Shown: piece by piece, positions 2,144 through 17,792 of the stretch | Position numbering within the stretch: position 1 is the stretch's first letter | Layout: the number at the start of each line of letters is the position of its first letter | From: an uncultured bacterium | Lineage (GTDB): Bacteria; Bacillota; Clostridia; Oscillospirales; Oscillospiraceae | Direction: 5' to 3' | Assembly (NCBI GenBank): GCA_947383145.1 | Contig: CANDCH010000006.1 | Coordinates: 1 to 64,000, forward strand | Length of the DNA stretch: 64,000 nucleotides | Position numbers and translations under genes: made by a program | Notes under the pieces: model-generated | Told to the model about the DNA's origin: nothing | What the model saw: only the letters and a program-made list of their open reading frames with translations | Database searches by the model: none

Positions 2144-2280
2144 GACAAAAACGTAAAATGCGCGAAAGGGGCGCCCCCTATGATTCGCGTGCAGGGCGCA
2201 GGCTCCACGCGCTTTTCCGGCGAGCGCTTCCGCAGGACCACGGCGCAGGGGTAAGCGCCGTACAAGCAGGCCGGGAGGCC

Positions 2281-2313: not shown

Positions 2314-2328
2314 ACTCATTCACGTCTG

Positions 2329-2357: not shown

Positions 2358-2380
2358 CAGATTGACAGGAGGTGGTACAT

Positions 2381-3091
2381 ACGAGGATATCAGTGGCGAT
2401 TGTAGAAGACGACGCATTGGCGGTCCAGGCGCTGGAGTACCATCTTGCCCGGTTCTCTCAAGAAAGCGGAAATACCTTCACCACTGCCCATTTCGCAGAG
2501 GCGGCGCGCTTTCTCCAGGATTATCAGCCCCGGTATGACATCGTCTTTATGGACATCAAAATGCCGGGACTGGACGGTATGTCCGCCGCCGAGCAGCTCC
2601 GGAAGGCGGACCCGGTGACCATGCTCATCTTTGTCACCAGCATGGTGCAGTACGCCGTCCAGGGCTATGACGTGAACGCCTTCGACTTCATCGTCAAGCC
2701 GGTGAACCCCACCGCCTTTGATATGAAGCTGCGGCGGGCGGTGCGGGCCCTCAAGCTGGCGAAGGGTACCGAGCTGGTGCTGAATATCGGGGGCGTCACC
2801 CGGGTGCTCCCCTCCTCGTCCATCTATTATATCGAGGTGCTGGACCACGACCTGACCTACCACACGGAGCAGGGCGTTTTTTCCGTCCGGGGCAAGCTGT
2901 CCTCCCTGGAGCAGAAGCTCCCGGCGGCGTCCTTTTTCCGGTGCAGCGTGTCCTATCTCATCAACCTGCGGTATGTCACCCAGTTCACCGGAGAGCAGGT
3001 GTGCGTGGCCGGGGAATGGCTGCGGGTGAGCCGGTCCAAGAAGCGGGAGCTGGCCACCGCGGTGGCCGCCTACCTTGGGCAGGGGGGTTAG
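2381..3091 (+). CDS. LytTR-family response regulator (possible ACG start)
   Basis: About 236 residues. A receiver domain (phospho-acceptor Asp about residue 58 in FMDIKMPG, conserved Lys in FIVKPVNP) is followed by a LytTR DNA-binding domain over the last 100 residues. The family (AgrA/LytR-like) pairs with GHKL kinases, and such a kinase follows immediately, four bases downstream. The start is odd: AGGAGG at 2367-2372 points to codon 2381, which is ACG and would give the usual M-R-I-x-V-A-I-V-E-D-D opening. The in-frame GTG at 2372 overlaps the ribosome site, and the GTG at 2393 is about 20 bases away and would trim the first beta strand. The start is inference; the gene identity is firm. 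Confidence 0.88.
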   Translation, partial: TRISVAIVEDDALAVQALEYHLARFSQESGNTFTTAHFAEAARFLQDYQPRYDIVFMDIKMPGLDGMSAAEQLRKADPVTMLIFVTSMVQYAVQGYDVNAFDFIVKPVNPTAFDMKLRRAVRALKLAKGTELVLNIGGVTRVLPSSSIYYIEVLDHDLTYHTEQGVFSVRGKLSSLEQKLPAASFFRCSVSYLINLRYVTQFTGEQVCVAGEWLRVSRSKKRELATAVAAYLGQGG

Positions 3092-3094
3092 GCC

Positions 3095-4426
3095 GTGATC
3101 ACTGGACTGCACAGCTACAAGCTGCTGTTTATGCTCCAGCTGATCGCGGGCGAGGGGCTTTTTCTGCTGCGTCTGGGACGCAAGCGCCGCTTCTGCTTCC
3201 GGCTGGCTGTCAGTACGGCCGGACTGCTGGCAGCGGCGGCGCTGTTTCCCATCCCGTTTGAAAATGCGTGGTACGTGTCCTTCCTGTTCCTGTCGCTGTT
3301 CAGCCTGACGCTGCTGGCCCTGTGGTTTTGCTTTGACGAGCCCTTCGGCAATCTGCTCTTCTGCGCCGTGGCGGGGTATACGGTCCAGCACCTGGCCTAT
3401 CTGATCTATGCCGCGTTCGACGACGCCACCCAGTTCAGCGTCATCTTCGGAAGCTTTGTCCAGCCCTATGCCGCCGGGCCCACGTCGTTCACCGATTTTG
3501 CATGGCTCAGCGTCGTGTTCTATGTGGACGCCTATTTCATCGTCTACTTGACTGCCTTTGAGCTGTTGGACCCCAAGCTGAAAACCAATCATGACCTGCG
3601 CCTGGGGCGAAACAGTATTGTGGGACACACCGGCCTGCTCATCGTGGCGGACGTGATCTTCAACATGGTGACCAACTATTATACCACGGGCCGGGCCTCC
3701 CTGCTTCTGGAGCGGTCCTACAACATCCTGGTGTGCGTTCTCATTCTGGTGCTGCTGAACAGCCAGCTCTCCCAGCGGGAGCTGACGGACGAGCTGACCG
3801 GGGTGCGCTATGTGGTGGAGCAGGGCAAGCGGCAGTATGAGCTGGCCAAAAAGAGCGTGGATCTCATCAACATCAAGTATCACGACCTGCGCCACCAGAG
3901 CGAGCGGCTCCGCCGCCAGGGCGGCGCGGAGGAGTTGGCCGAGCTGGACCGCGTCCTGGACGAATATTCCGCCCTGGTCAAAACAGGAAACGAGGTGCTG
4001 GACGTGATCCTGACCGAAAAAACCCTGGCCTGCCGGGAGCGCAGCATCCAGCTGCTGTGTATGGCGGACGGGCGGGGGCTGGAGTTCGTCAAGCCCCACC
4101 ACCTGTACGCCCTGCTGGGCAACGCCATTGACAACGCCATGGAGGCGGTGCAGGTCCTCCCGGAGGGGGAGCGGGTCATCAGCCTTTCCCTGCGCCGGCA
4201 GGGAGAGCTGGTCCACATTCACGTGGAGAATCCCTGCGCCGGTACGTTTACCATGCGGGGCGGACTGCCTGTTACCACCAAAGGGGATGAAAACTACCAC
4301 GGTTTTGGGATGCTGAGTATGAAAACCGTGGCGGAGCAGTACGGCGGCGGTCTGTCCGTTCAGATCGAGGAGGGAATTTTTTCCTTGGATATGATGCTTT
4401 CCGCCGCGAAAAGGGAGGCGGATTGA
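3095..4426 (+). CDS. membrane sensor histidine kinase, GHKL type (AgrC-like)
   Basis: 443 residues with a GTG start. The N-terminal 230 residues form about six hydrophobic membrane segments with no large external domain, as in quorum or peptide sensors. A dimerisation helix with the phospho-acceptor His near residue 263 (YHDLRHQ) follows, then a GHKL ATPase domain with the N box NAIDNA and a G box HGFGM. It lies three bases after the LytTR regulator, so the two form one two-component system. The inducing signal is unknown; no AgrD-like peptide gene is visible nearby. The GH3 glycosidase gene follows 158 bases later on the same strand and could be a target or simply a neighbour. Confidence 0.92.
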   Translation: MITGLHSYKLLFMLQLIAGEGLFLLRLGRKRRFCFRLAVSTAGLLAAAALFPIPFENAWYVSFLFLSLFSLTLLALWFCFDEPFGNLLFCAVAGYTVQHLAYLIYAAFDDATQFSVIFGSFVQPYAAGPTSFTDFAWLSVVFYVDAYFIVYLTAFELLDPKLKTNHDLRLGRNSIVGHTGLLIVADVIFNMVTNYYTTGRASLLLERSYNILVCVLILVLLNSQLSQRELTDELTGVRYVVEQGKRQYELAKKSVDLINIKYHDLRHQSERLRRQGGAEELAELDRVLDEYSALVKTGNEVLDVILTEKTLACRERSIQLLCMADGRGLEFVKPHHLYALLGNAIDNAMEAVQVLPEGERVISLSLRRQGELVHIHVENPCAGTFTMRGGLPVTTKGDENYHGFGMLSMKTVAEQYGGGLSVQIEEGIFSLDMMLSAAKREAD

Positions 4427-4514
4427 CCAACTGCGGCGCCCAGCGCGCAAAGTACGGTAATGCTATAGACAAATTGGATTTTATTTTGTAGCATCGTGGA
4501 CAGAACAGGGCAGA

Positions 4515-4539
4515 CCGGCGGGGAGGGCCCCTCCGCCGG
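4515..4539 (+). terminator. GC-rich hairpin between the kinase and GH3 genes
   Basis: An inverted repeat CCGGCGG..CCGCCGG with a paired GGG/CCC core. No T-run follows, so termination is uncertain; it could be an attenuator or mRNA-stabilising hairpin. Confidence 0.4.
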
Positions 4540-4584
4540 CTTCCGCCCCAACTGTTCACGATTCTTTTGAGAGGAGAAAATGAG

Positions 4585-7500
4585 ATGAAAGCGAAACGTA
4601 TCCTGCGCACTGCTGTTCCCAGCGTCCTCATTGCCCTCACCCTGGTGGTCGCCATCGTGGCCAATGTGATGATCCCGCCCAACATGAACGTCATCAACGG
4701 CTATCTGGGCGACGACACCACCGTCACCGTCAAGCAGCCCAAGGGGTATAACGACTCCCTGGACCTCCAGTACAACAAGTCTGACTATACCGCCGAGGAG
4801 ATGGCGGCCGTCGAGCAGGCCCTCAACGAGGAGATCATGGGGGAGGGCGCGGTGCTGCTGAAAAACGACGGTCTGATGCCCTTCGACAAGGACACCACCT
4901 TCAGCTTCTTCAGCCGTTCCTCCACCAAGTTGATGAGCAACGGCTGGTATGACATGATGGTGTCCATGGGCTTCCCCGCTGACCCCGGCATGACCCTGCG
5001 CGTCGCTTTCCAGGACCAGGGGTTCGGCGTGAACGAGACTCTGTGGGATTTTTACGACAAAGGAAACGGCAGCGGTTACGGCCTGGGCTCCGGCTCTATT
5101 GGCTGGGGCGACGGCGAGGACTTCTCCATCAACGAGTGTCCCTTGGACGTGATGGAGAAGGAGTCCGGCCTGCTGGATAGCGCCAAGGGCACCGTCCCCG
5201 TGTTCGTCTGGGGCCGCAAGGTGGGCGAGGGCCGGGATATGCCCCGGTCCATGTACAGCCACGCCGACAACCCCACCGACCAGGCCAGAAGCTACCTGGA
5301 GCCCGACACCACCGAGCTGGAGATTCTCCAATATCTCGATGAGAACTATGACGACGTGGTGCTACTGGTGAACAGTTCCGCCGCCATGGAGCTGGGCTGG
5401 GTGGACCAGTTCCCCAGCATCAAGTCCATTCTCACCGTGTCCAGCGTGGGCAATTTCGGCCTGAACGCCGTGGCGGACATTTTCGCCGGGGACATCAACC
5501 CCTCCGGCAAGACGGTGGACACCTTCGCCTATGACGCCGCCAGCGCCCCCGCCGCCGCCAACTACGGCGACTTCCAGTATATGACCGAGGGCGGCGAGAT
5601 GACCAAATACAACTACGTGGCCTACAAAGAGGGCATCTATGTGGGCTACCGCTACTATGAGACCCGGTATGAGGACGTGGTCATGGGGACCGGCAACGCC
5701 GGGGCCTATGATTATGCCTCCACCGTGCGCTACCCCTTCGGCTACGGCCTGAGCTACACCACCTTCGACTGGTCCAATTTTAAGGCCAATTGGAGCGGGG
5801 ATACCTGCACCGTCACCGTGGACGTAAAGAACACCGGCCCTGTGGCGGGCAAGGACGTGGTGCAGGTCTACATCCAGTCCCCCTATACCGATTACGACAA
5901 GCAGAACAAGGTGGAGAAATCCGCCGTCCAGCTGGCGGGTTTCGGCAAGACGGAACTGCTCCAGCCGGGGCAGAGCGGCACCGTCACCGTCGCCTTTGAC
6001 AAGGAGCAGCTCAAGGCCTACGACTACACCCGTGCCAAGACCTTTATTCTGGACGCCGGGGACTACTACATCACCGCCGCCCACGACGCCCACGACGCGG
6101 TGAACAACGTGCTGGCCGCCAAGGGCTATACCACGGAGGACGGCATGACCGAGGACGGCGACGCCGCGTTTGCCAGCCGGTATACCGTCGGCTCCATGGA
6201 CCTGGACACCTATGCCGTCAGCGCGGCGGGCGTCCCCGTCACCAACCGTTTCGACTTCATCCACGGCGGCTATGAGTACCTCACCCGCAATGACTGGCAG
6301 GGCTCCTGGCCCTCCACTGATGGCGAGGTCAGCGGCCAGATTTCCACCTGGGGCAACGAGATCAACGGCTCCGACGGCAAGAGCTACACCTATACCAAGA
6401 CCATCAGCGCCGGGGATCTGGCCAAGCTGGACGGCTTCGACTCTCTGAATCCCGCCGACGCCTCCTCCCTCACCGCCGACCCGGTGTACGGCGCGAAGAA
6501 CGGCCTCCAGCTCATCGACCTGCGGGGGAAAGACTACGGCGATCCCCTGTGGGAGGAGCTGCTGGACCAGCTCACCCCTGAGGACTACCAGACCATCATC
6601 GCCACCTCCGGCTATGGCAACGCGGAAATCCAGAGCGTGGGCAAGCCCTTCGCTCTGGATCAGGATGCGGCTACCGGCCTGACGGGCGGCGGCACCGGCG
6701 TGAGCTACTGCGGAACCCTGGTGCTGGCCCAGACCTGGAACCAGGAGCTGGCCGCCCGCTACGGCGAAATGATCGGTAATCAGGCCAACATCGGCGGCTG
6801 TGTGGGCTGGTATGCCCCCGCCATGAACATCCACCGCCTGCCCTTCTCCGGCCGGAACAACGAGTACTACTCCGAGGACGGCTACCTGTCCGGCGCCATC
6901 GCCGCCGCCACCAGCCGGGGCGCGGCCAGCAAGGGTATGTACACCTTCGTCAAGCACTTCGCCCTCAACGACCAGGAGAACCACCGGGGCGACCGGGTGG
7001 GCAATTTCGGCGTGTGCACCTGGTCCAACGAGCAGGCCGTCCGGGAAATCTACCTGCTGCCCTTCCAGATGTGTATTGAAAACGATCCCGTTACCCTGAA
7101 CTACGTGGAGGAGGACGGAAACGGCGGTTACCGCAACGCCAGCCGGGACTTCCCCGCGGTCAACGCCATCATGACGGCCTTCAACCGCATCGGCTACACC
7201 TGGACCGGCGGCTGTTACCCGCTGATCACCGAGGTGCTGCGCGGCGAGTGGGGCTTCAACGGGTTCGCCATCACCGACAACGCCAACACCGGCTCCCCCA
7301 CCTTTATGAACGCCTATCAGATGATCGAGGCGGGAGGCGACGCGGCGCTGACCACCAGCGAGTTCGCCGTGTGGAAATTTGAAAAGGACAACGCCGCCCA
7401 CTACCTCTATGGCCGGGAGGCCATGCACCACGTGCTGTACGCCGTGGCCAACTCCAAGGTGATGTGCGGCCTGATGCCCGGCTCCACCTTCGTCACCCCC

Positions 7501-7620
7501 ATGACCCTGGCGGAGAAGCTGGTGGTAGGCATCGACATCGGCGCGGTGGTCATCATCGCGGCGCTGGGCTACTTCATCTACCGGGGCTTCCGCAAGCCCA
7601 AAAATCAGGAGGCCAAATAA
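4585..7620 (+). CDS. glycoside hydrolase family 3, permuted domain order, membrane anchored
   Basis: 1011 residues. The ATG at 4585 is preceded by AGGAG at the right distance. An N-terminal membrane segment (about residues 10-32) and a C-terminal one (about 978-1000, then a basic tail) suggest anchoring at both ends with the enzyme outside. Domain order is swapped relative to most family 3 enzymes: the (alpha/beta)6 C-domain comes first, then a fibronectin-III-like domain (about 400-500), then the (alpha/beta)8 catalytic domain. The likely nucleophile is Asp898 in FAITDNAN, with the family KHF motif upstream in VKHFALNDQENHR. Such permuted beta-glucosidases are known from Ruminococcus and Butyrivibrio. 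Substrate (beta-glucoside or xyloside) cannot be fixed from sequence. Confidence 0.9.
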   Translation: MKAKRILRTAVPSVLIALTLVVAIVANVMIPPNMNVINGYLGDDTTVTVKQPKGYNDSLDLQYNKSDYTAEEMAAVEQALNEEIMGEGAVLLKNDGLMPFDKDTTFSFFSRSSTKLMSNGWYDMMVSMGFPADPGMTLRVAFQDQGFGVNETLWDFYDKGNGSGYGLGSGSIGWGDGEDFSINECPLDVMEKESGLLDSAKGTVPVFVWGRKVGEGRDMPRSMYSHADNPTDQARSYLEPDTTELEILQYLDENYDDVVLLVNSSAAMELGWVDQFPSIKSILTVSSVGNFGLNAVADIFAGDINPSGKTVDTFAYDAASAPAAANYGDFQYMTEGGEMTKYNYVAYKEGIYVGYRYYETRYEDVVMGTGNAGAYDYASTVRYPFGYGLSYTTFDWSNFKANWSGDTCTVTVDVKNTGPVAGKDVVQVYIQSPYTDYDKQNKVEKSAVQLAGFGKTELLQPGQSGTVTVAFDKEQLKAYDYTRAKTFILDAGDYYITAAHDAHDAVNNVLAAKGYTTEDGMTEDGDAAFASRYTVGSMDLDTYAVSAAGVPVTNRFDFIHGGYEYLTRNDWQGSWPSTDGEVSGQISTWGNEINGSDGKSYTYTKTISAGDLAKLDGFDSLNPADASSLTADPVYGAKNGLQLIDLRGKDYGDPLWEELLDQLTPEDYQTIIATSGYGNAEIQSVGKPFALDQDAATGLTGGGTGVSYCGTLVLAQTWNQELAARYGEMIGNQANIGGCVGWYAPAMNIHRLPFSGRNNEYYSEDGYLSGAIAAATSRGAASKGMYTFVKHFALNDQENHRGDRVGNFGVCTWSNEQAVREIYLLPFQMCIENDPVTLNYVEEDGNGGYRNASRDFPAVNAIMTAFNRIGYTWTGGCYPLITEVLRGEWGFNGFAITDNANTGSPTFMNAYQMIEAGGDAALTTSEFAVWKFEKDNAAHYLYGREAMHHVLYAVANSKVMCGLMPGSTFVTPMTLAEKLVVGIDIGAVVIIAALGYFIYRGFRKPKNQEAK

Positions 7621-7637
7621 GAACGGCCCCAACTAAA

Positions 7638-7795
7638 GAAGCGCTGATTAAATGCGTCTGCGGCGCTTTGCGGATCTTTTTCGCCGCAGCTTCGTTGTGA
7701 TTTCTTGAAATAAACACAATTATTCCTGCGAAATCACGCCTTACTATGGCGGAAAATCTCTTGCAAACCGCTCTTGCCGATTTAATCAGTCCTTC
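7638..7795. repeat. imperfect palindromic MITE-like element
   Basis: The two halves are inverted copies: GATTAAAT near the left end pairs with ATTTAATC near the right end. The arms of about 68 bases can be aligned with conserved blocks (TTTGC, ATTTTCGCC-like, GTGATTTC, AATAA). The outer ends are GAAGnnCTGATTAAAT. CTAAA occurs just outside both ends (7633-7637 and 7797-7801), possibly a target duplication. Bases 7689-7724 recur exactly, inverted, at 34095-34130. No coding content. Confidence 0.6.
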
Positions 7796-8058
7796 CCTAA
7801 AATTGCGATCCTCTTCATTCACCTTTGCAGGGCCTCGCCGGAGATTTCGGCGGGGTCCTGCGCACATTGCGGCAATAAAGGGGTTCCGTACGGATATCCC
7901 CGCCCTCCACATGGCGGAGGGTCCCCCGGGATTTAGGGGGGGATAAATGAACAAGGCTGCAGCCCTTCACCCCCGGCTCCAGGGCCTCCACGCCCAGCCG
8001 GGCCGCGCCGGTGTAACGCCGTTTGCAGTCCGCCGCCCAAAATTTTTTTGCGAAGCGA
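7796..8058. other. non-coding stretch between the MITE-like repeat and the 8059 promoter
   Basis: No supported gene. It contains a 14-bp-class hairpin at about 7826-7863 (GCAGGGCCTCGCCG paired with CGGCGGGGTCCTGC) and a smaller CCCTCC/GGAGGG hairpin near 7901-7922. Neither is followed by a T-run. A 50-codon frame starting at 7947 runs through the 8059 promoter and is not accepted as a gene. Confidence 0.5.
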
Positions 8059-8087
8059 TTGACAAAGCGATCCAGACCGTGTATAAT
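8059..8087 (+). promoter_or_regulatory. consensus sigma-A promoter for the 8196 gene
   Basis: -35 TTGACA (8059-8064), 17-base spacer, -10 TATAAT (8082-8087): both hexamers match consensus exactly, giving an expected strong promoter with a leader of about 100 bases. Confidence 0.88.
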
Positions 8088-8195
8088 AAGTTCAAATAAA
8101 ATATGTGAGTGCGTGGGTATAGATGGCTGAGGCCATACTATGCCCTTTTCTCGTTTTCAGCGGGAGGGGGCAACTCTTGAAAGGGGGAGCCTACC

Positions 8196-8543
8196 ATGGC
8201 ATCCAATCAGAACGCGAAAGAGTATTCCATCCACGTTATCCGCGAAAACCTGCGCCAGTCCTCCCTCCGGCAGGCACAGCTCCTGTCCCGGTCCGTCGGC
8301 CGGCTGACCTCCTGCGATGTCCAGCCCTGTCTGGAGTACCGCGCCGAGATCGGCTTGGAGCACGCCGTCATCGACCGGCTGCTCTACGTCCAGGAGTGCC
8401 GGGGTGCGTTGGAGCGGTGCATCGCCACCGGGGCCGTCCGCCTCCGTTACAGGTGGCAGGACGGGCACGTGACCGACACCCGCTTCCGCAGGATGTCGCC
8501 CGGACGGATCAGGGTCAGCGGGCTGCTGGCCGAGACCGCCTGA
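8196..8543 (+). CDS. unknown small cytoplasmic protein
   Basis: 115 residues that I do not recognise. No signal peptide or membrane segment. It is rich in charged residues, with a possible helical first half and a basic strand-rich C-terminal part (RLRYRWQDGHVTDTRFRRM). Translation is supported by the purine run AAAGGGGGAG before the ATG and transcription by a perfect-consensus promoter about 110 bases upstream, so expression is likely to be high. A GC-rich hairpin follows the stop. It marks the left edge of the accessory block. Calling it a real gene rests on the promoter and ribosome site, not on homology. Confidence 0.65.
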   Translation: MASNQNAKEYSIHVIRENLRQSSLRQAQLLSRSVGRLTSCDVQPCLEYRAEIGLEHAVIDRLLYVQECRGALERCIATGAVRLRYRWQDGHVTDTRFRRMSPGRIRVSGLLAETA

Positions 8544-8550
8544 CGGGGCC

Positions 8551-8575
8551 CGGGCGGGGGTCATACCCCCGCCCG
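8551..8575 (+). terminator. hairpin after the 8196 gene
   Basis: CGGGCGGGGGT and ACCCCCGCCCG form an 11-bp stem with a three-base loop eight bases after the stop codon. No T-run follows, so it may act as a weak or Rho-assisted terminator. Confidence 0.5.
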
Positions 8576-8681
8576 CATAATGGACACATAGATATGCTGG
8601 TTTTTCATGTCCAAAACCGGGCAGGCGCGGCCCGCAATGCCTGCGCTTTGTCCCGGCGTCCACATAAAAAGGCCGCGCCCG

Positions 8682-10490
8682 TCAATAGCGGACGACCTCG
8701 GGGAGGTATACGCCGTCCAATATGTGGGAAAAGCGGGAATATCCCTTAGGATTGAACATCCTCGTGTCCTGGGGAACGCGCAGCGTCTTCAAGGACGGCT
8801 CCTTTGCCTTTGTAGAGAAATCCTTCTTCCAGGAAAACGCGAATTCGCTCATTTGCTCACAGCTTCCGGGGATGGTGACCGTGGGACCCAGGGCGGAGCA
8901 GTTTTCGAACGCTTTGTACCCGATGTATTTCACGCAGTCCAGCTCGATGTGCGTCAGGGCCTCGCAATAGGAAAACGCCTCGTCCCCGATGTGCTCCACG
9001 CCGCGCAGGCCGATATGCGCCAGGGCCTTGCAGGAGGAGAACGCCTTGTCCCCGATGTGCTCCGCGCCGTCCAGGTCAACGCGCCCCAGGGCCGTGCATA
9101 ATAAGAACGCCTCCTTCCCGACGCGCTTTACGCCGCGCAGGCCGATCTCCCGCAGGGAGGAGCAGCCGTAAAACGCGCGGTCCTCAATGTCTGTCACCGC
9201 GCCCCCCGCGAAGACGACCCGGGTCAGCTCGCCGCAGTTCGCGAACGCCTTTTCCCTGACGCGGGTGACGGTCCTGGGGACGGTGTAGGCGCCGCTCTTC
9301 CACTGGGGGCAGTAGATCAGCTCCGTCTTGTCCTTGTTGAAGATCACGCCGTCCTCCGAGGAGAACCGCTCGTTTTCGGCCGCGAAGGTGATGGTGACAT
9401 CCAGTTCGCTTTTGAACATCTCGAAGAAAAAGCCGGGGGTGTACGGCTCGATGAGCTCCTGTGTTCTGCACCTCCACGTCTGGTAGACCGCAAAGGGCTG
9501 GAGCCGGCACCGGGCGCCCAGGAAATTCACCCGCTCCAGGTTGTCGGGGAAAAAGCTGGTGTAGTACGCGCCATCCGTCTCGTACGGGGTGAGGCGCTCC
9601 AGGCTGTCGGGCAGGCTGATCTCCCGCAGCTCCTTGCAGCCCTTGAAGGCCTTGTACCCGATCTCCTCCAGGGCGGAGGGCAGCTTGACGGATTTCAGGA
9701 AAATGCAGTGGTCAAAGGCCTCCGGCCCGATCTCCGTCACCGTGTCGGGCAGGACCACGCGGAGCAGGTCCCGGTTGAACACGTATTTCACCACTTTGGC
9801 CGTGCGCGTCTCATACTCCACGCCGCCGCCGCCGTCGCTGTCTATGACGTTGGCGCTCACCGTGCGCCAGAGCTGCTCCACGGGGCTCCCGTCCTGATAC
9901 CTCTGCGTGACGGTGTGCATCGTGGCCGCGAAGGCCCCTTTGCCGATCTTTTTGACCCCGTCGGGCACCGTGTAGGTTTCCCCCGCCTTCCCGTAGGGAT
10001 ACCAGATCAGCTCCGTCTGGTCCTTGTTGAACAGCACGCCGTCCCGGGCGGAGAGGCAGGGGTGGTCCGGGTCCACCACGACCGCCCGGGGAAGCTGGGT
10101 GGACAGCCGGACCCCCATGGTCTCATCCCAGCTGGGCTCCTCGGAATCGCAGCGGACCCGATACGCCTCCGCGAAGGCCGAAAAATCCCGGTACACCACG
10201 TCGGGATACTTGGAGTCGCTCAGGTAGACGGCCTCATACAGATGGGCGCGCCGAAGCGATCCGACCAGATGGCCGGTGAAGGAGTTCCACTCCCATTCCA
10301 GATTCTTCTTTCGCTCCCGCGCGATCTCCTCGGGGGTCATGTCCTCCATCTGCTCCTCCGTCAGCTCCTCCGGCTCGTCGGGCAGGCACCTTGCCGTGAC
10401 GCGGACCGTGCTCAGGTCGTCGGAGAGCTCAAGCCCCTCTTTGGCGCACTCCGCCTTGAGCCGGACAATGGGGTCCTGTTCCTGTTTCAT
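8682..10490 (-). CDS. BspA-type leucine-rich repeat protein (LRR_5), apparently cytoplasmic
   Basis: 602 residues. Two runs of BspA/TpLRR-like repeats (LRR_5) are visible, with repeated cores such as IGYKAFKGCKELREISLP and IGDKAFSSCKALAHIGLR. Each run is preceded by a phrase of the form VLFNKDQTELIWYP / VIFNKDKTELIYCP. No signal peptide, sorting motif or membrane segment is present, unlike most surface BspA proteins, so it probably acts inside the cell or leaves by an unknown route. The first 110 residues are acidic, not LRR, and unrecognised. The ATG has AGGAGG upstream. It is divergent from the 10712 operon across a 221-base shared control region. LRR proteins usually bind protein partners; the partner here is unknown. 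Confidence 0.85.
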   Translation of the reverse strand: MKQEQDPIVRLKAECAKEGLELSDDLSTVRVTARCLPDEPEELTEEQMEDMTPEEIARERKKNLEWEWNSFTGHLVGSLRRAHLYEAVYLSDSKYPDVVYRDFSAFAEAYRVRCDSEEPSWDETMGVRLSTQLPRAVVVDPDHPCLSARDGVLFNKDQTELIWYPYGKAGETYTVPDGVKKIGKGAFAATMHTVTQRYQDGSPVEQLWRTVSANVIDSDGGGGVEYETRTAKVVKYVFNRDLLRVVLPDTVTEIGPEAFDHCIFLKSVKLPSALEEIGYKAFKGCKELREISLPDSLERLTPYETDGAYYTSFFPDNLERVNFLGARCRLQPFAVYQTWRCRTQELIEPYTPGFFFEMFKSELDVTITFAAENERFSSEDGVIFNKDKTELIYCPQWKSGAYTVPRTVTRVREKAFANCGELTRVVFAGGAVTDIEDRAFYGCSSLREIGLRGVKRVGKEAFLLCTALGRVDLDGAEHIGDKAFSSCKALAHIGLRGVEHIGDEAFSYCEALTHIELDCVKYIGYKAFENCSALGPTVTIPGSCEQMSEFAFSWKKDFSTKAKEPSLKTLRVPQDTRMFNPKGYSRFSHILDGVYLPEVVRY

Positions 10491-10538
10491 ATAATCGGCC
10501 TCCTAATTTTTCTGATTTTTCCGGCTTTGCGCTGTCTC

Positions 10539-10567
10539 ATTATACCATGTCTCAGCGCACCGCACAA
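10539..10567 (-). promoter_or_regulatory. promoter of the LRR gene, flanked by direct repeats
   Basis: Minus-strand -35 TTGTGC (10562-10567), 17-base spacer, -10 TATAAT (10539-10544). On the plus strand TGTCTCA occurs at 10533-10539 and again at 10549-10555, bracketing the -10 box, as a repressor site might. Confidence 0.65.
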
Positions 10568-10620
10568 GCACAGTATGACGACTCGGGATTTTTTTGATCG
10601 TATATTTTACAATATATTTC

Positions 10621-10649
10621 TTGACGGCTTACTAGTATCATGCTAGGAT
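10621..10649 (+). promoter_or_regulatory. promoter of the 10712-13440 gene pair
   Basis: -35 TTGACG (10621-10626), 17-base spacer, -10 TAGGAT (10644-10649), about 60 bases before the first start codon. It is divergent from the LRR promoter. Confidence 0.65.
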
Positions 10650-10711
10650 AGACGCGCGGGGGCGGCTCCGCGGACCCTATCCCCATTTTAGGAGAGGAAC
10701 GGTGCGTATTC

Positions 10712-11845
10712 ATGGAATTGTCCAAGGAAAAGCTGGATGTCCAGCAAAAAAATCTGGAGCGGCTTCAAGAGGCGGCGGACGAGCTTCTGCGCCATATGAA
10801 GGGCCACGACTACTCCTTCCAACGGGACGTCACGGACAAGAAGGGGGCGTATTCCCCGGAAAAGCTCCACGGCCTGGTGGAGGAGATGCTGTCCCTGTGG
10901 GAGGCGAAGTTGCGCGCGGAGCCCTTTGCCGCGAAGCGCCGCGTGAACGCCCATCTTCGGACGCGGCGGGAGCTGTACGGCCTGTACCTCTATCTGGTCA
11001 TGCGGTGCGGCCTGTGCCGTGGCGGGTACTACTACGCCCGGGGCGGAAGTCTAAAGGAGCGGACCGACTTCGCCTTCCTGCTGGAGCAGGCCAAGTGGTT
11101 CATCCGGGGCTGGTGTATCACGAACGGGCCGGACGGGGCCAGGCAAAACGACCTGAGATGGGGCTATGATGAACACTTCGGCTTTCACCTCTATCTTCCC
11201 ATCGAGGACTGCCGCCGGCGTCACGGCTTTACGGACCTGTACGTGGGGAACCTGGACGACGAGCTTGCCCTGACACCCCAGTGGAAGATGGCCGGGAACC
11301 GCCCGGAGCTCCTGGCGGACAAGCCGGAGGAAACGGAACAGCCGGAGGCGGCGGACGAGACGGAGAAGATGGAACAGCCGGAGGCGGCGGAGCCGCTTGA
11401 CGGCGCGGACGGGCCGGAGGAGGACGGCGCTCTGTTTGAGGACGACGGGGACTATGACTATGACCTTCTGGACGACGCCTATGACCCCCTGGATGAGCTG
11501 GATGAGGAGACCCGCGCCCTGTTCTGGGAGGGTGAGGTCGAGCGAAATGAGGAGCTGGGGAGCAGGAGCTGGGACCTGTTGCTGCTGGTTCAGAGCTTCG
11601 AGGACCTGGACGAGTACTGCGCCGCCTGCGAGCGCTTTGTGGAGCTTTTCAGGGAGGCGGGGACGGAAATCCCCCGTGACTTCTGCCGGGAGCTGGAGGA
11701 GATCGTGAACCTGTACCTGTTCCAGCGGGGGATCGCCCCCCTGGCGGACACGGACAAGGCGCTGGAGGTATACGGCGGCCTCTGCGACGGCCCCCTCCGG
11801 CAGGCGAGGCGTTACGGGAGGGGACTGCAATGGAACGGCCTGTGA
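10712..11845 (+). CDS. unknown protein with acidic low-complexity linker
   Basis: 377 residues that I do not recognise. The first 170 residues look globular, with an aromatic/basic core (RELYGLYLYLVMRCGL, RDL-type WGYDEHFGFHLYL). A strongly acidic linker rich in E, P and A (about 200-275) includes two near-copies of EQPEAADETEKMEQPEAAE-like sequence. A helical C-terminal domain follows (about 285-377). No signal peptide. The ribosome site GGAGAGG is 14 bases before the ATG, longer than usual, but no better start is in frame. It overlaps the next gene by 16 bases, so the two are coupled and probably work together. No function can be assigned. Confidence 0.72.
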   Translation: MELSKEKLDVQQKNLERLQEAADELLRHMKGHDYSFQRDVTDKKGAYSPEKLHGLVEEMLSLWEAKLRAEPFAAKRRVNAHLRTRRELYGLYLYLVMRCGLCRGGYYYARGGSLKERTDFAFLLEQAKWFIRGWCITNGPDGARQNDLRWGYDEHFGFHLYLPIEDCRRRHGFTDLYVGNLDDELALTPQWKMAGNRPELLADKPEETEQPEAADETEKMEQPEAAEPLDGADGPEEDGALFEDDGDYDYDLLDDAYDPLDELDEETRALFWEGEVERNEELGSRSWDLLLLVQSFEDLDEYCAACERFVELFREAGTEIPRDFCRELEEIVNLYLFQRGIAPLADTDKALEVYGGLCDGPLRQARRYGRGLQWNGL

Positions 11846-13440
11846 GCGCGGTCCGCGACGCGTTTTTCAGCGACCTGATCCGCGGGTATATCCTGGACGG
11901 CGAGGACTCCTTCCTGTATAGGTACTTTTGGGCGGACGGCGTCACGGGGCTGCTGGAGGAGCATTTTCCACAGCTTTACATTAAGATGAAGCGGGCCCCG
12001 CGGCGGGAGGACGGGCCCAAGGTCGGAAAGCGGCTGGCCGGGGCCATGGCGGCCAACCCGGATGGGGCCAGAGGAAAGCTGCTGAAAAGGACGCCGGGCA
12101 GGAGCCGCCGGGACTTCTGGGAGGAGCTGTGGCTGAACGACGCGGGATACCGGTCAAAGCTGATCACGGACACGGAGTATTACCTGTGGCTGGTGGACTA
12201 CCTGGCGGCTCACGATATCTATTATAAGGATACCAGCCTGTGGGACCAGCGCGACTGCCTGGATACCCTGCTGAAGCGGGGGCTGGCCTGGGAAGAGGGA
12301 GCCCTGGAACCGGGCTGGCGGGAGCGGCGGTGCGACGGTCCGGCGGGCGGTAAGCAGAAAGGGGAGCTTATCTTCTCCACGGCACAGCTGAAGCGGGATC
12401 TGGCGGAGTTGGCGAAAAGGCTGCGGAAGGAGCGCGAGGCGGGAGGGATGGAGATCGCCGGCCGGCTGCACGGCCTGACCTGCCGCGACGGGGGCAGGCC
12501 GGTGGACTACCTGCTCTGGCTGACCGGCCGGCTGGCGCGGATGGCGCTCCACATCAGGATCAAGACCTGGCTCCAGGACAGCGGATATCCCCTCATCAAG
12601 CAGGAGGACCCGGGGGAGAACTGGGAGGAAGCTGAGGAGGGGGCCAAATGGGAACCCTTTAAAAGGGGGGCCCGGAGGAAGCGGGACTTCACCATGGGGC
12701 TGTTCGAGGCATACTGCGGCAGTCCCGAGGGCTACTATTTCGACAAAAAGGACCCGGCCGGCGTGCCGCCTCCCGAGGGCTGGGGCCTGAAGGGCAACGG
12801 GTTCTGTGTGCTGGACCCGGAGCGGCTTGACGCGCTTCAAGACGCCCTGAAGCGGGGCGGGAACCCCCGCTGCTACATTCCGCTGGCGGTGGACCTGTAC
12901 AGCGGCTGCGTCTTTTTCCTGGCGGGGAAGGAGCTTTACGCGCAGGCGTACCGCCGGGAGGCGCAGAGGCTGGAGGAGGCCCGCGGCCGCGCGGAAAAGG
13001 AGCGTGACCGCGCGAAGGAGGCCCTGGAGGCGTATGAAGGCGGAGCCTGGAAGGACCCCGCCCGCGTGAAGGAGCTCAAAAAGGCCCTCGCGGCCGCGGA
13101 AAGCACCCGCAAGGCCGCGGAGGAGGCCTGCGCGCAGGCGGCGGAGGACCGGAGGGCTTACAAAGCCGCGAAAGCCCGCGTCTGCTTTGACTACCTCCGC
13201 CTGGATGGGGAGCGCAAGGAGAAGTCCTCCGGGAAGGCGTTCCAGCTGCGGCCCGTCTTTCACAAAAACGCCGGTCAGGCTTATGAGAATATCCTGTATC
13301 AGTTCAAGTGGTACTGCGTGGACGGGGACGGCAGCTTCCCCGGGGAGGGCAGTCCCCGCGAGGCGGTCCGGGCGGTCAATCAGGCCAGGCCAGACGGCCT
13401 CCCGGAGGGACTGCTCGGCTGGGCTTTCAGCGGGCCGTAG
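11830..13440 (+). CDS. unknown protein with a long coiled coil
   Basis: 536 residues that I do not recognise. The start lies inside the end of the preceding gene (16-base overlap) with a purine run AGGGGA upstream. An Arg/Lys-rich N-terminal part is followed by a globular middle. A long charged coiled coil at about residues 370-450 (EAQRLEEARGRAEKERDRAK and KELKKALAAAESTRKAAEEA) precedes a C-terminal domain ending in a Trp/Tyr-rich segment. No membrane or export signals. The coupled pair 10712/11830 sits between an LRR protein and the Sel1-ClpP-VirD4 genes. The coiled coil suggests a structural or adaptor role, which is inference. Confidence 0.72.
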   Translation: MERPVSAVRDAFFSDLIRGYILDGEDSFLYRYFWADGVTGLLEEHFPQLYIKMKRAPRREDGPKVGKRLAGAMAANPDGARGKLLKRTPGRSRRDFWEELWLNDAGYRSKLITDTEYYLWLVDYLAAHDIYYKDTSLWDQRDCLDTLLKRGLAWEEGALEPGWRERRCDGPAGGKQKGELIFSTAQLKRDLAELAKRLRKEREAGGMEIAGRLHGLTCRDGGRPVDYLLWLTGRLARMALHIRIKTWLQDSGYPLIKQEDPGENWEEAEEGAKWEPFKRGARRKRDFTMGLFEAYCGSPEGYYFDKKDPAGVPPPEGWGLKGNGFCVLDPERLDALQDALKRGGNPRCYIPLAVDLYSGCVFFLAGKELYAQAYRREAQRLEEARGRAEKERDRAKEALEAYEGGAWKDPARVKELKKALAAAESTRKAAEEACAQAAEDRRAYKAAKARVCFDYLRLDGERKEKSSGKAFQLRPVFHKNAGQAYENILYQFKWYCVDGDGSFPGEGSPREAVRAVNQARPDGLPEGLLGWAFSGP

Positions 13441-13470
13441 CGGCCGGAGCGGGAGGCGGTTGTCAATCAG

Positions 13471-13506
13471 CACGGGACGGGGCAGCCCCCGTCCCGTGTT
13501 ATTTTT
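13471..13506 (+). terminator. rho-independent terminator after the 10712-13440 pair
   Basis: Stem CACGGGACGGGG / CCCCGTCCCGTG with a short loop, followed by TTATTTTT. The remaining sequence to the next gene (13507-13754) is a GC-rich leader of about 250 bases in which I see no gene; it contains short repeats of the form AGGGGCGAnGCGnTGCC. Confidence 0.82.
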
Positions 13507-13754
13507 CGCTGGAAAACTAAATTGTAGTTTTTACGATGTATCTCCGTTTTTTCCGGCATAATGTACTCGTACCCGCGAGGCACCTTGCCAACTGAACCCC
13601 GCCCGTCCAAAGCCCGCATCCCTGGGCAAAGCACCGTCAGGGGCGAAGCGCTGCCAGAACCCCCGCAAGGGGCGAGCGTGCCGACAGGGGCGCGCGCGGC
13701 GGCAGCGGGAAACAACAGCACACACCAAATCAAATGAGAAAGGGGACTGACGTT

Positions 13755-14501
13755 ATGAACAAACTGGCGAACAGGAGCATGGAGGAGCTTTTGGCCCTGG
13801 CAGAGCACGACCCGGAGGCCCAGTTCCAGCTGGGACTGAACTACGCCAACGGCGACGGCGTCAGGCGGGATTGGGAAAAGTGCGTGGAGTGGTCCCGGAG
13901 GGCGGCGGAAAACGGCCACCCCGGCGGGCAGTTCAATCTGGGCTGCTGCTATGATCTGGGCAAGGGCGTCCCCCGGGACATGGTTCAGGCCGCGAAGTGG
14001 TACCGAAAGGCGGCGGAGCAGGGCTTTGCTTTTGCGCAGGTCAACCTGGCCCGCTGCTATGGCTTGGGCGAGGGGGTTCCCCGGGACGCGGCCCAGTCGG
14101 CGGAATGGTACCGAAAGGCGGCGGAGCAGGGCGACGCCGAATCTCAGTGTGTATTAGGCCACCGCTATTTAAAGGGCAGGGGGGTCCCGCAGGATGACAC
14201 CCAGGCGGCAGAGTGGTTCCACCGGGCGGCGGAGCAGGGCAATGCGGAATCCCAATATGTTCTGTTTATGCTCTACACCTTGGGGCGGGGGGTGCCGCGG
14301 GACACGCTGGAGGCGTCGAAATGGTGCGTGAAGGCGGCGGCCCAGGGCCATAAACCGGCGAGGGATACGATCCGTAAAGTGAATCCGGATATGCTCGCCA
14401 TGATCGACCGGGGAGAGACCGGCGTGGACGCACTGCTGAACGCGGCGGAGCAGATACAGAAAAACGGCGGTCTGGACGCCGCGTCCCATCCCCATCCCTG
14501 A
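13755..14501 (+). CDS. Sel1-repeat (TPR-like) protein
   Basis: 248 residues made mostly of five tandem 36-residue Sel1-like repeats, each with the pattern A..LG..Y..G.GVPRD...AA.WYRKAAEQG. Such solenoids bind other proteins, often in signalling, ER-associated-degradation-like or secretion pathways. No signal peptide, so probably cytoplasmic. I start it at the second in-frame ATG because AGAAAGGGG lies at the right distance; the first ATG (13734) lacks a ribosome site. Short hairpin after the stop. It lies directly upstream of the ClpP-VirD4 operon and could be its adaptor, which is inference. Confidence 0.85.
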   Translation: MNKLANRSMEELLALAEHDPEAQFQLGLNYANGDGVRRDWEKCVEWSRRAAENGHPGGQFNLGCCYDLGKGVPRDMVQAAKWYRKAAEQGFAFAQVNLARCYGLGEGVPRDAAQSAEWYRKAAEQGDAESQCVLGHRYLKGRGVPQDDTQAAEWFHRAAEQGNAESQYVLFMLYTLGRGVPRDTLEASKWCVKAAAQGHKPARDTIRKVNPDMLAMIDRGETGVDALLNAAEQIQKNGGLDAASHPHP

Positions 14502-14509
14502 GGAACGGA

Positions 14510-14538
14510 GCGCTCCCGGCCGGGATGGCCGGGAGCGC
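14510..14538 (+). terminator. 12-bp GC-rich hairpin after the Sel1 gene
   Basis: GCGCTCCCGGCC pairs perfectly with GGCCGGGAGCGC around a five-base loop. No T-run, so partial read-through into clpP is possible. Confidence 0.5.
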
Positions 14539-14579
14539 CCCTCCAGCACCAACTAACACAATATTAAGGAGGAGTCAAT

Positions 14580-15167
14580 ATGTACGTCGCAAACGAAGCC
14601 AGCATCATCAAGGAATCCACCTACGGCTACCACCTCATTCCCATCCAGGACGAGATGCTCTCCCACCGGGAGGTGGAGCTGGTGGGGGAGGTGACCCCGG
14701 ACTCGGTGAACGCCCTGGTCCGGCAGCTGCGCCACCTCCAGCGGCAGGACCCGGAGGGGGAGATCACCCTGTACATCAACAGCCCCGGCGGAAGCGTGGA
14801 CAGCGGCATGGCCCTCTACGACGTGATGCAGGCGGTGAGCTGCCCCGTTCGGACGGTGTGCGTGGGGCTGGCGGCCTCCATGGCGGCGCTGCTGTTCGTC
14901 TCGGGCGCCCGGCGGGATATGCTCCCCCACAGCCGCCTCATGATCCACGACCCGCTGATCGTCCAGACCGGCGGCAGCGCCCTGAAGCTGAAGGCGGTGA
15001 GCGACGACCTGATGGAGACCCGGCAGATCATCGCCAAGGTCATCGCGGACCACTCCGGCCAGAGCGTGGAGGAGGTGCTGGCCAAAACCGCCACCGACAG
15101 CTACTTCCGGGCGGAGGAGGCCGTGGCGTTCGGACTGGCTGACCGCGTGATCACCAGCCTGGCGTAA
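14580..15167 (+). CDS. ClpP-family serine protease, non-canonical paralogue
   Basis: 195 residues, the normal ClpP length. The catalytic triad can be placed as Ser100 (LAASMAAL), His123 (MIHDP) and Asp173 (TATDSYF), and the handle region SPGGSVDSGM is present. Departures from housekeeping ClpP are the nucleophile context ASMAA instead of ASMGA and the unusual N-terminal 25 residues. There is no neighbouring clpX or tig; instead a VirD4/TraG-type ATPase gene follows after 37 bases on the same strand. The gene is preceded by AAGGAGG. It probably forms a barrel protease whose partner is not ClpX; the partner is inference. It could also be a ClpP-like phage/IS-type protease, but no phage genes are nearby. 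Confidence 0.85.
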   Translation: MYVANEASIIKESTYGYHLIPIQDEMLSHREVELVGEVTPDSVNALVRQLRHLQRQDPEGEITLYINSPGGSVDSGMALYDVMQAVSCPVRTVCVGLAASMAALLFVSGARRDMLPHSRLMIHDPLIVQTGGSALKLKAVSDDLMETRQIIAKVIADHSGQSVEEVLAKTATDSYFRAEEAVAFGLADRVITSLA

Positions 15168-15204
15168 AAGAAGCAGAAGCCGAATAAAAAAGGAGGAACA
15201 TACT

Positions 15205-16494
15205 ATGATGAACAATGTCAAAACCAGCCGCATCCTGGGCAAGAACCTCTTTGCCAGCAACGACACCTGGGCCACCGGGATCAACAACAACGACCTGCTG
15301 GTGGGTCCCCCGGGCGCGGGCAAAACCCGGGGCTATGTGATCCCCAACCTCCTCCACGCCCAGGACAGCCTCATCATCGCCGACACCAAGGGGAACCTGC
15401 GCCGGCTGTACGGGAAGCACCTGGAGGAGCGGGGCTACACGGTGATGCACCTGGACTTCACCGACACGGCCCGCACCCCCTGGGGCTACAACCCCCTGTC
15501 CTACGTCCGGCCCTGCCGGGACAAGAGGGCCAACCGGGAGGGGGACTATTACGACGAGCAGGACGTGAAAAAGGTGGCACAGGCCATCTGCCCCTGTCAG
15601 GATTTCAGTCAGCCCTTCTGGGACCTGGCCGCCCAGATGTACCTGGAGGCCATCCTCCTCTTTATCCTCAACCAGCTTCCCGAGGAACAGCACAACCTGT
15701 ATGAGGCGTACACCTTCCTGTCCAAGCTGGGTACCCACGAGCTGAACGACGTCGTGGAGGAGGAGCGCGTCACCCACCCCAACAGCGCCTTTGCCCGGAA
15801 GATGGGCATGATCCGGCAGAATAAGGAAGCGGAGAAGATGGACGCCAGCATCAAGGGAATCCTGGCCCGGCACCTGGACGGGGTGGGCAGCTCCAGCGCG
15901 CGGCGGATGTTCCGCATGAAGCCCCAGGTGGACCTGAGCTCCTTCCTCAAGAAAAAGACGGCCCTGTTTCTGTCGGTCAGCGACTCCGACCGCAGCCAGG
16001 ACGCCCTGGTCAACCTGTTCTACACCCAAGCGCTGCAGTATCTCATGGCCGCCGCGGACAAGCGGCCGGACAGCCGCCTGCCCATCCCGGTGCGCTTCAT
16101 CCTGGACGACTTCAGCACCAACACCGTCATCCCGGATTTCGACAACATTATCTCTGTGATCCGCTCCCGGGAGATCTATGTCAGCCTGGTCGTCCAGAGC
16201 CTGTCCCAGCTGGAGGGCCTCTACGGCCACGCCAAGGCCCAGACCATCATCAACGGCTGCGACCACTGTCTGTACCTGGGCGGGACGGACAGCCAGACCG
16301 CCCGGTACTTCGCGGAGAAGTTCAACTGCCAGATGTCCACGGTGCTCAACCTCCCGCTGGACGCCATGTTCCTCTTCACCCGGGGCAGCGCGCCCCAGCG
16401 GGCCCAGAAGTACGAGCTGGACCAGGACAGCGCCTATCTCGCCCTGACGCGGCCGCGGAAGGGCGACAAAGCCGGAAAGGAGGCCGGGATATGA
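15205..16494 (+). CDS. VirD4/TraG-type coupling ATPase lacking a membrane domain
   Basis: 429 residues. Walker A GPPGAGKT (34-41) and Walker B FILDDF (Asp301/302) are intact, and the family sequence after Walker B is recognisable (IPDFDNIISVIRSREIY, LVVQSLSQLEGLYG, INGCDHCLYLGG). Classical type IV coupling proteins have two N-terminal membrane helices and exceed 550 residues; this one starts 30 residues before Walker A and has none, so it should be soluble. No relaxase, VirB4 or other transfer gene is in the window. A strong AAGGAGG precedes the ATG. It overlaps the next gene by four bases and follows a ClpP-like gene, suggesting a hexameric motor working with these partners rather than DNA transfer. 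Confidence 0.88.
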   Translation: MMNNVKTSRILGKNLFASNDTWATGINNNDLLVGPPGAGKTRGYVIPNLLHAQDSLIIADTKGNLRRLYGKHLEERGYTVMHLDFTDTARTPWGYNPLSYVRPCRDKRANREGDYYDEQDVKKVAQAICPCQDFSQPFWDLAAQMYLEAILLFILNQLPEEQHNLYEAYTFLSKLGTHELNDVVEEERVTHPNSAFARKMGMIRQNKEAEKMDASIKGILARHLDGVGSSSARRMFRMKPQVDLSSFLKKKTALFLSVSDSDRSQDALVNLFYTQALQYLMAAADKRPDSRLPIPVRFILDDFSTNTVIPDFDNIISVIRSREIYVSLVVQSLSQLEGLYGHAKAQTIINGCDHCLYLGGTDSQTARYFAEKFNCQMSTVLNLPLDAMFLFTRGSAPQRAQKYELDQDSAYLALTRPRKGDKAGKEAGI

Positions 16495-17561
16495 AAAAGG
16501 AAGGCAGACCGCGGCTGACGCTGGAGGAGCGGCTGAAGCGGGCGGCGCGGTCTCAGGCATCATCGCCTGAGGCCGCCGCCAAGCTGGTGGAGCGGCTTTC
16601 CCAGACTCATATTGCATATGTCTTTCACGAAAGCGCCGATTTTAATCTCATGTACGAGCTGATGGGACAGTTCATGAACGCGCTGGACGATGACGTGCTG
16701 CATTACGGCGGCTTCTGCCGGAGCTTTGAGCTGGCCGTCGCCACATATGGGCCCGGTTCCACCGACCCCTCCAGGCGCCTTCCCTCCCCGGCATTTCCCG
16801 CCCCGGTCTGGGGCGTGGAGGTGAACAACGCCGTGGTCCTGCTGGGGCTGATGCTGCTGGACCACGCCAAGGGCAGGCGGCGGGACAGGGACGTGTACCA
16901 CTGCACCCGGATGACCCTGGGGCAGTACCTGGACGCCCTGCCGGAGCCGGAGGCCCCCTGGAAGCGGTGGAGCGTTGAGAAATGGCGGGACGGGCTTCTG
17001 ACGCGGCACGACCCCTCCCAGCCCCTGGCGGAGGCGCTGGCGGACATCCTCCGGAGCTATATCGACGGGTGGCAGGAGTTCGACCATGTGGACTACGTCC
17101 TGCGCTGCATGGGGGGGCTGGCCTGCTATCTGGAGCAGGAGGGGCCGGAGAAGGCCCAGGTGGACCCGGCGCAGGTCCGGCAGTTCCGGGAGGCCCTGTG
17201 CCAGTATAGCTCCGAGCTGGAGGGCTGGAAGCTGGTGGAGGTGGACAAGCGGTATCCGGACCCCTGCGGGTATTACTTCACCCTGGCCAATGAGTACCCC
17301 GGCAGCGCCCCCGACCCCGGCGGCGGCGGGGTCCCCGCCGGGGCCGTCCGCCTCCAGATTTTCCTCCACCAGTGGGACTACAACCCCCGGACCCTGCGGG
17401 CGCTGGCCGAACAGTCGCCCTCCCCGGACCTGGGGGCGCTCTTGGAGAAGAGCGTCAGCGAGGAGCGGCTGTCCGCCGCCATGGGCAAGATCAACACGGC
17501 GGTGACGGATCTGTACAGCCTGTGGGTGGAGCCCTATCTGCGGATGGAGTATTCCCGCTAG
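16491..17561 (+). CDS. unknown protein coupled to the VirD4-like ATPase
   Basis: 356 residues that I do not recognise. The start overlaps the stop of the ATPase gene (ATGA). The N-terminus is basic (KKEGRPRLTLEERLKRAAR), followed by a mainly helical body with no membrane segment or signal peptide. The C-terminal third is likely helical. It has been kept in strict linkage with the ATPase by overlap, so a physical or functional partnership is likely. Homology in loci that also hold ClpP and VirD4-like genes would test this. No nuclease, protease or nucleotide-binding motif was seen. Confidence 0.75.
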   Translation: MKKEGRPRLTLEERLKRAARSQASSPEAAAKLVERLSQTHIAYVFHESADFNLMYELMGQFMNALDDDVLHYGGFCRSFELAVATYGPGSTDPSRRLPSPAFPAPVWGVEVNNAVVLLGLMLLDHAKGRRRDRDVYHCTRMTLGQYLDALPEPEAPWKRWSVEKWRDGLLTRHDPSQPLAEALADILRSYIDGWQEFDHVDYVLRCMGGLACYLEQEGPEKAQVDPAQVRQFREALCQYSSELEGWKLVEVDKRYPDPCGYYFTLANEYPGSAPDPGGGGVPAGAVRLQIFLHQWDYNPRTLRALAEQSPSPDLGALLEKSVSEERLSAAMGKINTAVTDLYSLWVEPYLRMEYSR

Positions 17562-17725
17562 CGCACAGCGATATTTCTCGCGCCGGGGGCGGTCCCTCCG
17601 GGGCCCGCCCCGGTTATAGAGCCTCATTTTTTGAACAGAATTATTAATGGTATGTACAATCAAGCCACTTAAATATAATCTATATTTCCCAATTGCCCTA
17701 TACAGAAGAGTTACGATGACAAAGA

Positions 17726-17763
17726 GGGAAGGACTGCCCGCCGCGCGGCGGGCAGTCCTTCCC
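17726..17763. terminator. perfect 38-base palindrome, probable terminator
   Basis: A 19-bp perfect inverted repeat (GGGAAGGACTGCCCGCCGC and its complement) lies between the accessory operon and purA. A short T-rich stretch follows on the plus strand (CTTTTGG). The remaining gap 17562-17912 holds the purA promoter and no gene. Confidence 0.7.
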
Positions 17764-17792
17764 TAACTTTTGGTAAAATGCGCGAAAGGGGC

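Follow-up and report, generated by a model that had tools for sequence, protein, structure and literature searches.

A 64,000-nucleotide stretch of DNA from an uncultured Oscillospiraceae bacterium (contig CANDCH010000006.1 of assembly GCA_947383145.1, hereafter the window) carries a gene for a ClpP-family serine protease directly followed by one for a soluble ATPase of the type IV coupling protein (VirD4/TraG) kind, and we report that this ClpP and this ATPase are a conserved two-gene module. In 30 of 33 mapped loci, ClpP immediately precedes the ATPase on the same strand, with a gap of -35 to 72 nt; the exceptions are L117, where the gap is 270 nt, L035, where ClpP lies downstream of the ATPase with two genes in between, and L040, which is cut at a contig end. 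The loci comprise the window, 27 found through the ATPase and five (L051-L055) retrieved through ClpP in same-genus genomes; as ClpP was the query for these five, they cannot be used to show that the ATPase predicts ClpP. No other family clustered by plain BLAST is present in more than five of the 33 loci. The initial annotation had supposed that ClpP, the ATPase and the following 356-residue protein (P356) are conserved together; the neighbourhood search bears this out for the first two and not for P356 as such, a plain search with which gave no match in the 199 other genomes of the family, and a strict three-gene unit was rejected on that ground. The three genes are real, but the set was drawn too small, as two further proteins, P377 and P536, also belong to it. 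We favour, with moderate confidence, a dedicated ATP-dependent protease in which the ClpP chamber would be driven by a captured conjugation motor rather than by ClpX or ClpA.

The ATPases linked to ClpP are set apart from their relatives by their sequences. Relatives in the genome samples are mainly of two kinds, high-scoring proteins of ~400-450 aa and conventional, lower-scoring ones of ~600 aa. The Walker B motif reads DDF in all 34 ClpP-linked rows (33 distinct copies, some near-identical, one of them entered twice as L044 and L053), in contrast to DEF in 63 of the 66 unlinked rows; two others read IDEA and IDEC (L031, L034), and the sole unlinked DDF row, L010, is a cut contig also represented as L040. 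No ClpP was found within ~1.5 kb of the unlinked relatives, most of whose loci covered only that distance per side. Among 20 further short-frame loci, the two with DDF are both linked to ClpP, one of them (L204) being new and from another class of the phylum and the other (L222) the same place as L086, already known, and a near copy of L112; the other 18, with DEF in 12 and no readable motif in six, have no ClpP within the DNA covered. The median number of residues before the Walker A lysine is 42 in linked and 149 in unlinked ATPases, so the membrane region is missing in the former. In a tree of 32 short and 23 long rows, made by a quick method and containing several long branches, the linked short ATPases form one clade (Shimodaira-Hasegawa-like approximate likelihood ratio test 99). 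The distances among ClpPs mirror those among ATPases (r 0.84 over 26 loci; 0/2000 permutations), also within the 13 near loci alone (r 0.69; 0/2000 permutations). Three members from other families and orders (L105, L111 and L112) are nested among same-family rows in the near clade, which suggests transfer between lineages. In L004, an in-frame gap follows Walker A of the ATPase.

In the window itself, the initial description of three intact, closely spaced reading frames was borne out, with 37 nt between ClpP and the ATPase, a 4-nt overlap between the ATPase and P356, all on the forward strand, and GGAGG-like sites upstream of the starts. The Ser-His-Asp triad of ClpP is likewise intact (Table 1), and so is Walker A of the ATPase; Walker B is present but has Asp-Asp, not Asp-Glu. 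The absence of membrane helices was confirmed, since the highest 19-residue mean hydropathy is 1.40 vs 2.06-2.74 in seven conventional relatives. The available portion of PMC7434980 describes coupling proteins that lack the membrane domain, so this absence alone is not new, and gives their Walker B motif as hhhhDE; it also places the nucleotide-binding domain near the membrane and the all-alpha domain toward the cytoplasm, from which we infer that ClpP would take the place of the membrane channel. The window ATPase as modelled by AlphaFold2 (mean predicted local distance difference test score, pLDDT, 89.9) contains both domains, and its fold matches Cag-beta (9e-17) and TrwB-deltaN70, from which the first 70 residues are removed (1e-13), then VirB4 and, more weakly, HerA-DUF4297. 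Judged from this model, the ATPase would in effect be a naturally occurring counterpart of the soluble TrwB construct. It belongs to Pfam families PF02534/PF12696/PF10412 and passes the NCBIfam model conju_CD1115 (257.7 bits vs a cut-off of 250), whose name, 'VirD4-like conjugal transfer protein, CD1115 family', may be the reason why the pair went unremarked.

The ClpP barrel is closed and normally depends on an axial motor, and all ClpP motors known to us are AAA+ unfoldases. The genome that holds the window has another, housekeeping ClpP, which adjoins a ClpX with an IGF loop. In the accessible part of PMC9035409, such motor loops dock in hydrophobic sites on the ClpP docking face. We compared this face between 27 ClpP rows of the present family and 25 ClpPs of same-genus genomes, mostly housekeeping, at positions that we take to follow E. 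coli ClpP numbering. All 27 family rows keep the catalytic Ser and His. R22 (25/25 housekeeping-type rows vs 3/27), D26 (25/25 vs 2/27, or 6 counting Glu), an aromatic residue at position 82 (23/25 vs 0/27) and Ile, Leu or Met at position 112 (24/25 vs 0/27) are mostly or entirely lost. Position 60, Gln in 23 of the 25 housekeeping-type rows, is uninformative.

A second family of proteins accompanies the pair. Genes abutting ClpP upstream share the motifs [SP]LxxRL near the start and LLxEP[FY] near the end, and the motif-bearing genes form two modules, A and B, which are fused or occur as separate genes. Among 511 called genes, first models of seven A and eight B segments gave as held-out matches only L105 (9.8e-12), L054 (0.0018) and P356 of the window (0.0025) for module A and only L038 (0.0014) for module B, all adjoining a pair. 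Small genes that the home-made gene caller had overlooked (module A of L055, module B of L105) were recovered in six frames. After iteration, all matches with E <0.5 among 8,284 six-frame open reading frames of 192 loci lay beside pairs, and P356 reached 1.8e-10 among called genes, being by then included in the model. A module A model made without P356 found matches in four of 200 family genomes (G013, G014, G087 and G089), that is, in 4/7 known pair carriers vs 0/193 other genomes of the family. Because the match of P356 covers 46 residues only, its membership in module A is likely, not certain. P356 has no Pfam match, and its predicted structure is all-helical and weak (mean pLDDT 65). On these sequence comparisons, P356 probably belongs, in diverged form, to a family encountered to date exclusively next to the ClpP-ATPase pair. 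The earlier proposal that it is an adaptor or effector is thereby partly sustained: the restriction of the family to the pair fits an adaptor, but P356 itself had no match by plain search in the other family genomes. Separately, at L051:11331-13720 and 16169-16729, the pair is followed by two full P356 paralogues and, as a third match, a partial one.

P377 and P536 recur as well. A P377-type model built from L036:10678-11673, the C-terminal part of the L053 ATPase and L106:11594-12580 matched, outside its own rows, only L113 (2e-19), the window P377, L002 and L003 (6e-6 to 3e-5); in L053 the P377 homologue is fused to the ATPase C-terminus. Among 197 genomes of the order, this model found only the genome of the window, the other known carriers probably lying outside that sample. 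P536 matches L036:11677-12747, and a model of L036 and L106 matches L113:7165-8298 (2e-8) and not P536 directly, so the link of P536 runs through L036. Loci of the P377 and P536 types lie on both sides of the first split in the 20-member clade to which the window belongs. A superfamily 1 helicase joins the cluster in L036, L053 and L106, a PemK/MazF-like toxin gene (L037:7536-8105) overlaps the ClpP start by 20 nt, and IetA- and subtilase-like genes occur close to L002 and L039, among them an IetA-like AAA near L002. Two members of the PADLOC DpdF family, L117:959-2812 (strong) and L105:7538-9592 (weak), were taken as general helicases and not counted. On a remote branch, a recurrent family of ~500-600 aa (F6) lies upstream of ClpP in L107, L109, L110, L119 and L121; its helix-turn-helix match is below the cut-off.

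Based on these findings, we propose that the ATPase hexamer would dock its former membrane face onto ClpP, and that its all-alpha domain or the A/B proteins would choose substrates, which would be pulled into the ClpP chamber and cut. Such direct coupling of motor and protease seems to us reasonably probable. Defence against, or control of, mobile DNA is the likeliest purpose, and a defence role proper, which rests on context, has a little under an even chance. In its fullest form, the fast-evolving A/B adaptors would recognise invading proteins or protein-DNA complexes, which the protease would shred; that the ClpP barrel and the domesticated conjugation pump make up a new class of energy-dependent protease, used in this way as an immune system, is put forward tentatively. 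The initial idea of a protease-motor system not built on ClpX or ClpA thus holds as far as ClpP and the ATPase are co-conserved, while the ATPase physically driving ClpP is a step beyond that observation.

Several points weigh against this proposal. The interaction of ClpP with the ATPase is itself a prediction; a ClpP-docking loop was sought by eye in the ATPase and none was found; a ring of seven ClpP subunits and a motor of six could be joined only in a flexible manner, and the change from Glu to Asp in Walker B may slow ATP hydrolysis. In the family ClpPs, the catalytic Asp is kept in 23/27 (Asn in three, Glu in one), position 62 is Tyr or Phe in 21/27, and position 112 is Tyr or Phe in 8/27, Phe being also the residue of the reference chain; with positions 62 and 112 partly kept while 22, 26 and 82 are mostly lost, the docking face is partly changed, not erased. 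Module A was detected in 13 of 16 near-clade loci and in none of the remaining loci, its model without P356 gave no match in the window's own genome (P356), G056 or G167, and the P377 and P536 types occur in 7/33 and 6/33 loci, respectively. PADLOC-DB 2.0 holds no matching system for the gene set.

Although the parts resemble those of known systems, the combination differs from each of them. Like ClpXP, ClpAP and ClpCP, the window set has a ClpP chamber with Ser-His-Asp, a hexameric-type ATPase and adaptor-like proteins encoded alongside; unlike them, its ATPase has a TrwB-like coupling protein fold and is not an AAA+ protein with an IGF-type loop, and the docking face of its ClpP is partly changed. 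Likewise, the fold of nucleotide-binding and all-alpha domains is that of type IV coupling proteins (TrwB, Cag-beta, the CD1115 family and TraJ of pIP501, which lacks the transmembrane domain), whereas the linked ATPases lack the membrane region that is usual, not universal, in that group, have DDF for DEF and are paired with ClpP. The system fails defining features of both parents, the motor not being AAA+ and the ATPase being without the DE motif, the membrane part and transfer genes. HerA-DUF4297 and similar systems also co-encode a pump ATPase with an effector enzyme, but here the effector is a ClpP protease, with extra A/B, P377 and P536 proteins. IetAS-type defence likewise joins an ATPase with a protease, of different families in both cases. 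The six window proteins had no strong match in PADLOC-DB 2.0 (best, mad8, 6e-6 for the ATPase). The initial annotation knew of no described system with this set, and no description of the ClpP-ATPase pair was found in the open-access papers searched; these were represented largely by the openings of abstracts, with most subscription papers and all preprints outside. If the proposal is true, a protease barrel can stand in for the membrane channel of a conjugation pump. This would bear on the question of protein unfolding and passage through coupling proteins, and the set would offer a small, testable machine for destroying proteins, complete with dedicated adaptors.

Among the alternatives, the one that survives best, though we regard it as unlikely, is a sensor-effector defence without threading, wherein the DNA-bound ATPase detects foreign DNA and ClpP is switched on via P356, P377 or P536. 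The closest folds of the ATPase are DNA pumps, with HerA-DUF4297 defence complexes matching more weakly, helicases occur in three clusters, and the system is sporadic (a close ClpP in 5 of 42 genomes of the genus) and borne in the window by an island. However, a closed ClpP barrel normally calls for an axial motor, and direct coupling agrees no less well with the strict pairing and with the alteration of the docking face.

An ordinary coupling protein without its membrane part, acting in trans with relaxases elsewhere and with ClpP as a companion of unclear use, is less probable still. In its favour are the match to the CD1115 model, the existence of coupling proteins lacking the membrane domain (PMC7434980, in the portion available), the DUF3991, DnaB-like or SSB-like (single-stranded DNA-binding protein-like, named by eye) genes in some loci, the position of the window ATPase as the genome's only PF10412 match and only P0002 match, and the relaxases and VirB4 elsewhere in that genome. 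The initial annotation had noted no relaxase or type IV genes, which is correct for the neighbourhood and not for the other contigs of the genome, where five relaxases and one VirB4 were found (C3, C4, C7, C12, C43 and C11). Against this reading, that VirB4 lies at a contig edge, so its own coupling protein may be missing from the assembly, and the 614 kb of the 33 loci, at ~10 kb per side, yielded neither a relaxase nor a VirB4 in a search for PF03432-like relaxases only (leave-one-out matches 1e-55 or better) and one VirB4 type. The homologues are thus not always inside conjugative elements, and the pair as plain cargo of such elements, of the types searched, was rejected. In addition, the unlinked relatives have no ClpP within ~1.5 kb, DDF stands in place of DEF, and plasmid matches reach at most 33.3% identity in the best eight rows, with all 2,390 records <60%.

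That ClpP is an extra isoform mixing with or serving the housekeeping Clp system, with the ATPase doing an unrelated job, appears very improbable: fold, Ser and His are canonical and the docking face is partly kept (62, 112), but R22, D26 and the aromatic residue at 82 are mostly lost, and the adjacency and mirrored distances of the two proteins also count against it. A head-maturation protease of phage type acting with a packaging motor is next to excluded and was rejected. In its favour is a match to a prohead ClpP model, below the cut-off of that model (98.1 vs 120); against it, a pattern search of viral contigs gave no confirmed relative, phage records have at most 34.2% identity among the matches listed (best 8 of 41), and no capsid family is among the 25 top families of 147 near and 102 outer neighbours.

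Table 1. Positions in the window of the genes, motifs and flanking elements discussed.
Feature	Position	Strand	Evidence or remark
Left 20-bp direct repeat of the 15.6-kb island	2153..2172	.	
P377, recurrent partner	10712..11845	+	held-out match 9.2e-6
P536, recurrent partner	11830..13440	+	held-out match 3.1e-4, ~90 residues
Terminator-like hairpin separating P536 from Sel1-ClpP-ATPase-P356	13469..13500	+	
Sel1-repeat protein, 255 aa, optional neighbour	13734..14501	+	
ClpP-family serine protease, accessory type, 195 aa	14580..15167	+	Pfam CLP_protease 2.7e-50
ClpP Ser100	14877-14879	+	catalytic triad
ClpP His123	14946-14948	+	catalytic triad
ClpP Asp173	15096-15098	+	catalytic triad
ATPase of the type IV coupling protein kind, 429 aa, no membrane domain	15205..16494	+	Pfam T4SS-DNA_transf 3.5e-37
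ATPase Walker A, GPPGAGKT, residues 34-41	15304-15327	+	
ATPase Walker B, ILDDF (D301-D302)	DDF from 16105	+	
P356, probable diverged module A protein, proposed adaptor, 356 aa	16491..17561	+	
P356, module A part	16518-16655	+	
Terminator-like hairpin after P356, 18 pairs	17725..17764	+	
Right 20-bp direct repeat of the 15.6-kb island	17773..17792	.	

P377 and P536 are part of the set and perhaps form a transcript separate from Sel1-ClpP-ATPase-P356, as a terminator-like hairpin lies between them (Table 1); with eight terminator-like sites observed vs 6.4 expected, the hairpins are weak evidence. The whole set lies in a 15.6-kb insertion (2153-17792) upstream of purA, bounded by perfect 20-bp repeats. 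This island is absent in seven of eight same-genus relatives, in which the flanks up to ~2170 and from ~17775 are adjacent; at these seven empty sites the best repeat match (13-15/20) lies at the junction, 14/20 being reached by chance elsewhere in L166 (G208), the sole relative of the eight without an empty site beside purA. No recombinase or integrase gene was seen by eye among the island reading frames, of which not every one was searched. Near neighbours were 157 as listed (without loci L003, L052, L107 and L120), 147 of them scanned; the 102 outer neighbours were 100 of 133 listed and two L112 genes added by hand. As Pfam gave two integrase matches among these 102, there is no steady link to integrating elements.

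The island also carries, at 2372-7620, a LytTR response regulator and histidine-kinase-like and large glycoside-hydrolase-like proteins, the latter two named by eye. A leucine-rich repeat (LRR) protein lies at 8682-10490, and the Sel1 protein directly precedes ClpP. Sel1 was found in five and LRR_5 in two of the 147 near neighbours, and Sel1 proteins lie upstream of ClpP in L051 and L052 as well. The LRR and Sel1 repeat proteins near several copies are possible candidates for substrates or recognition parts.

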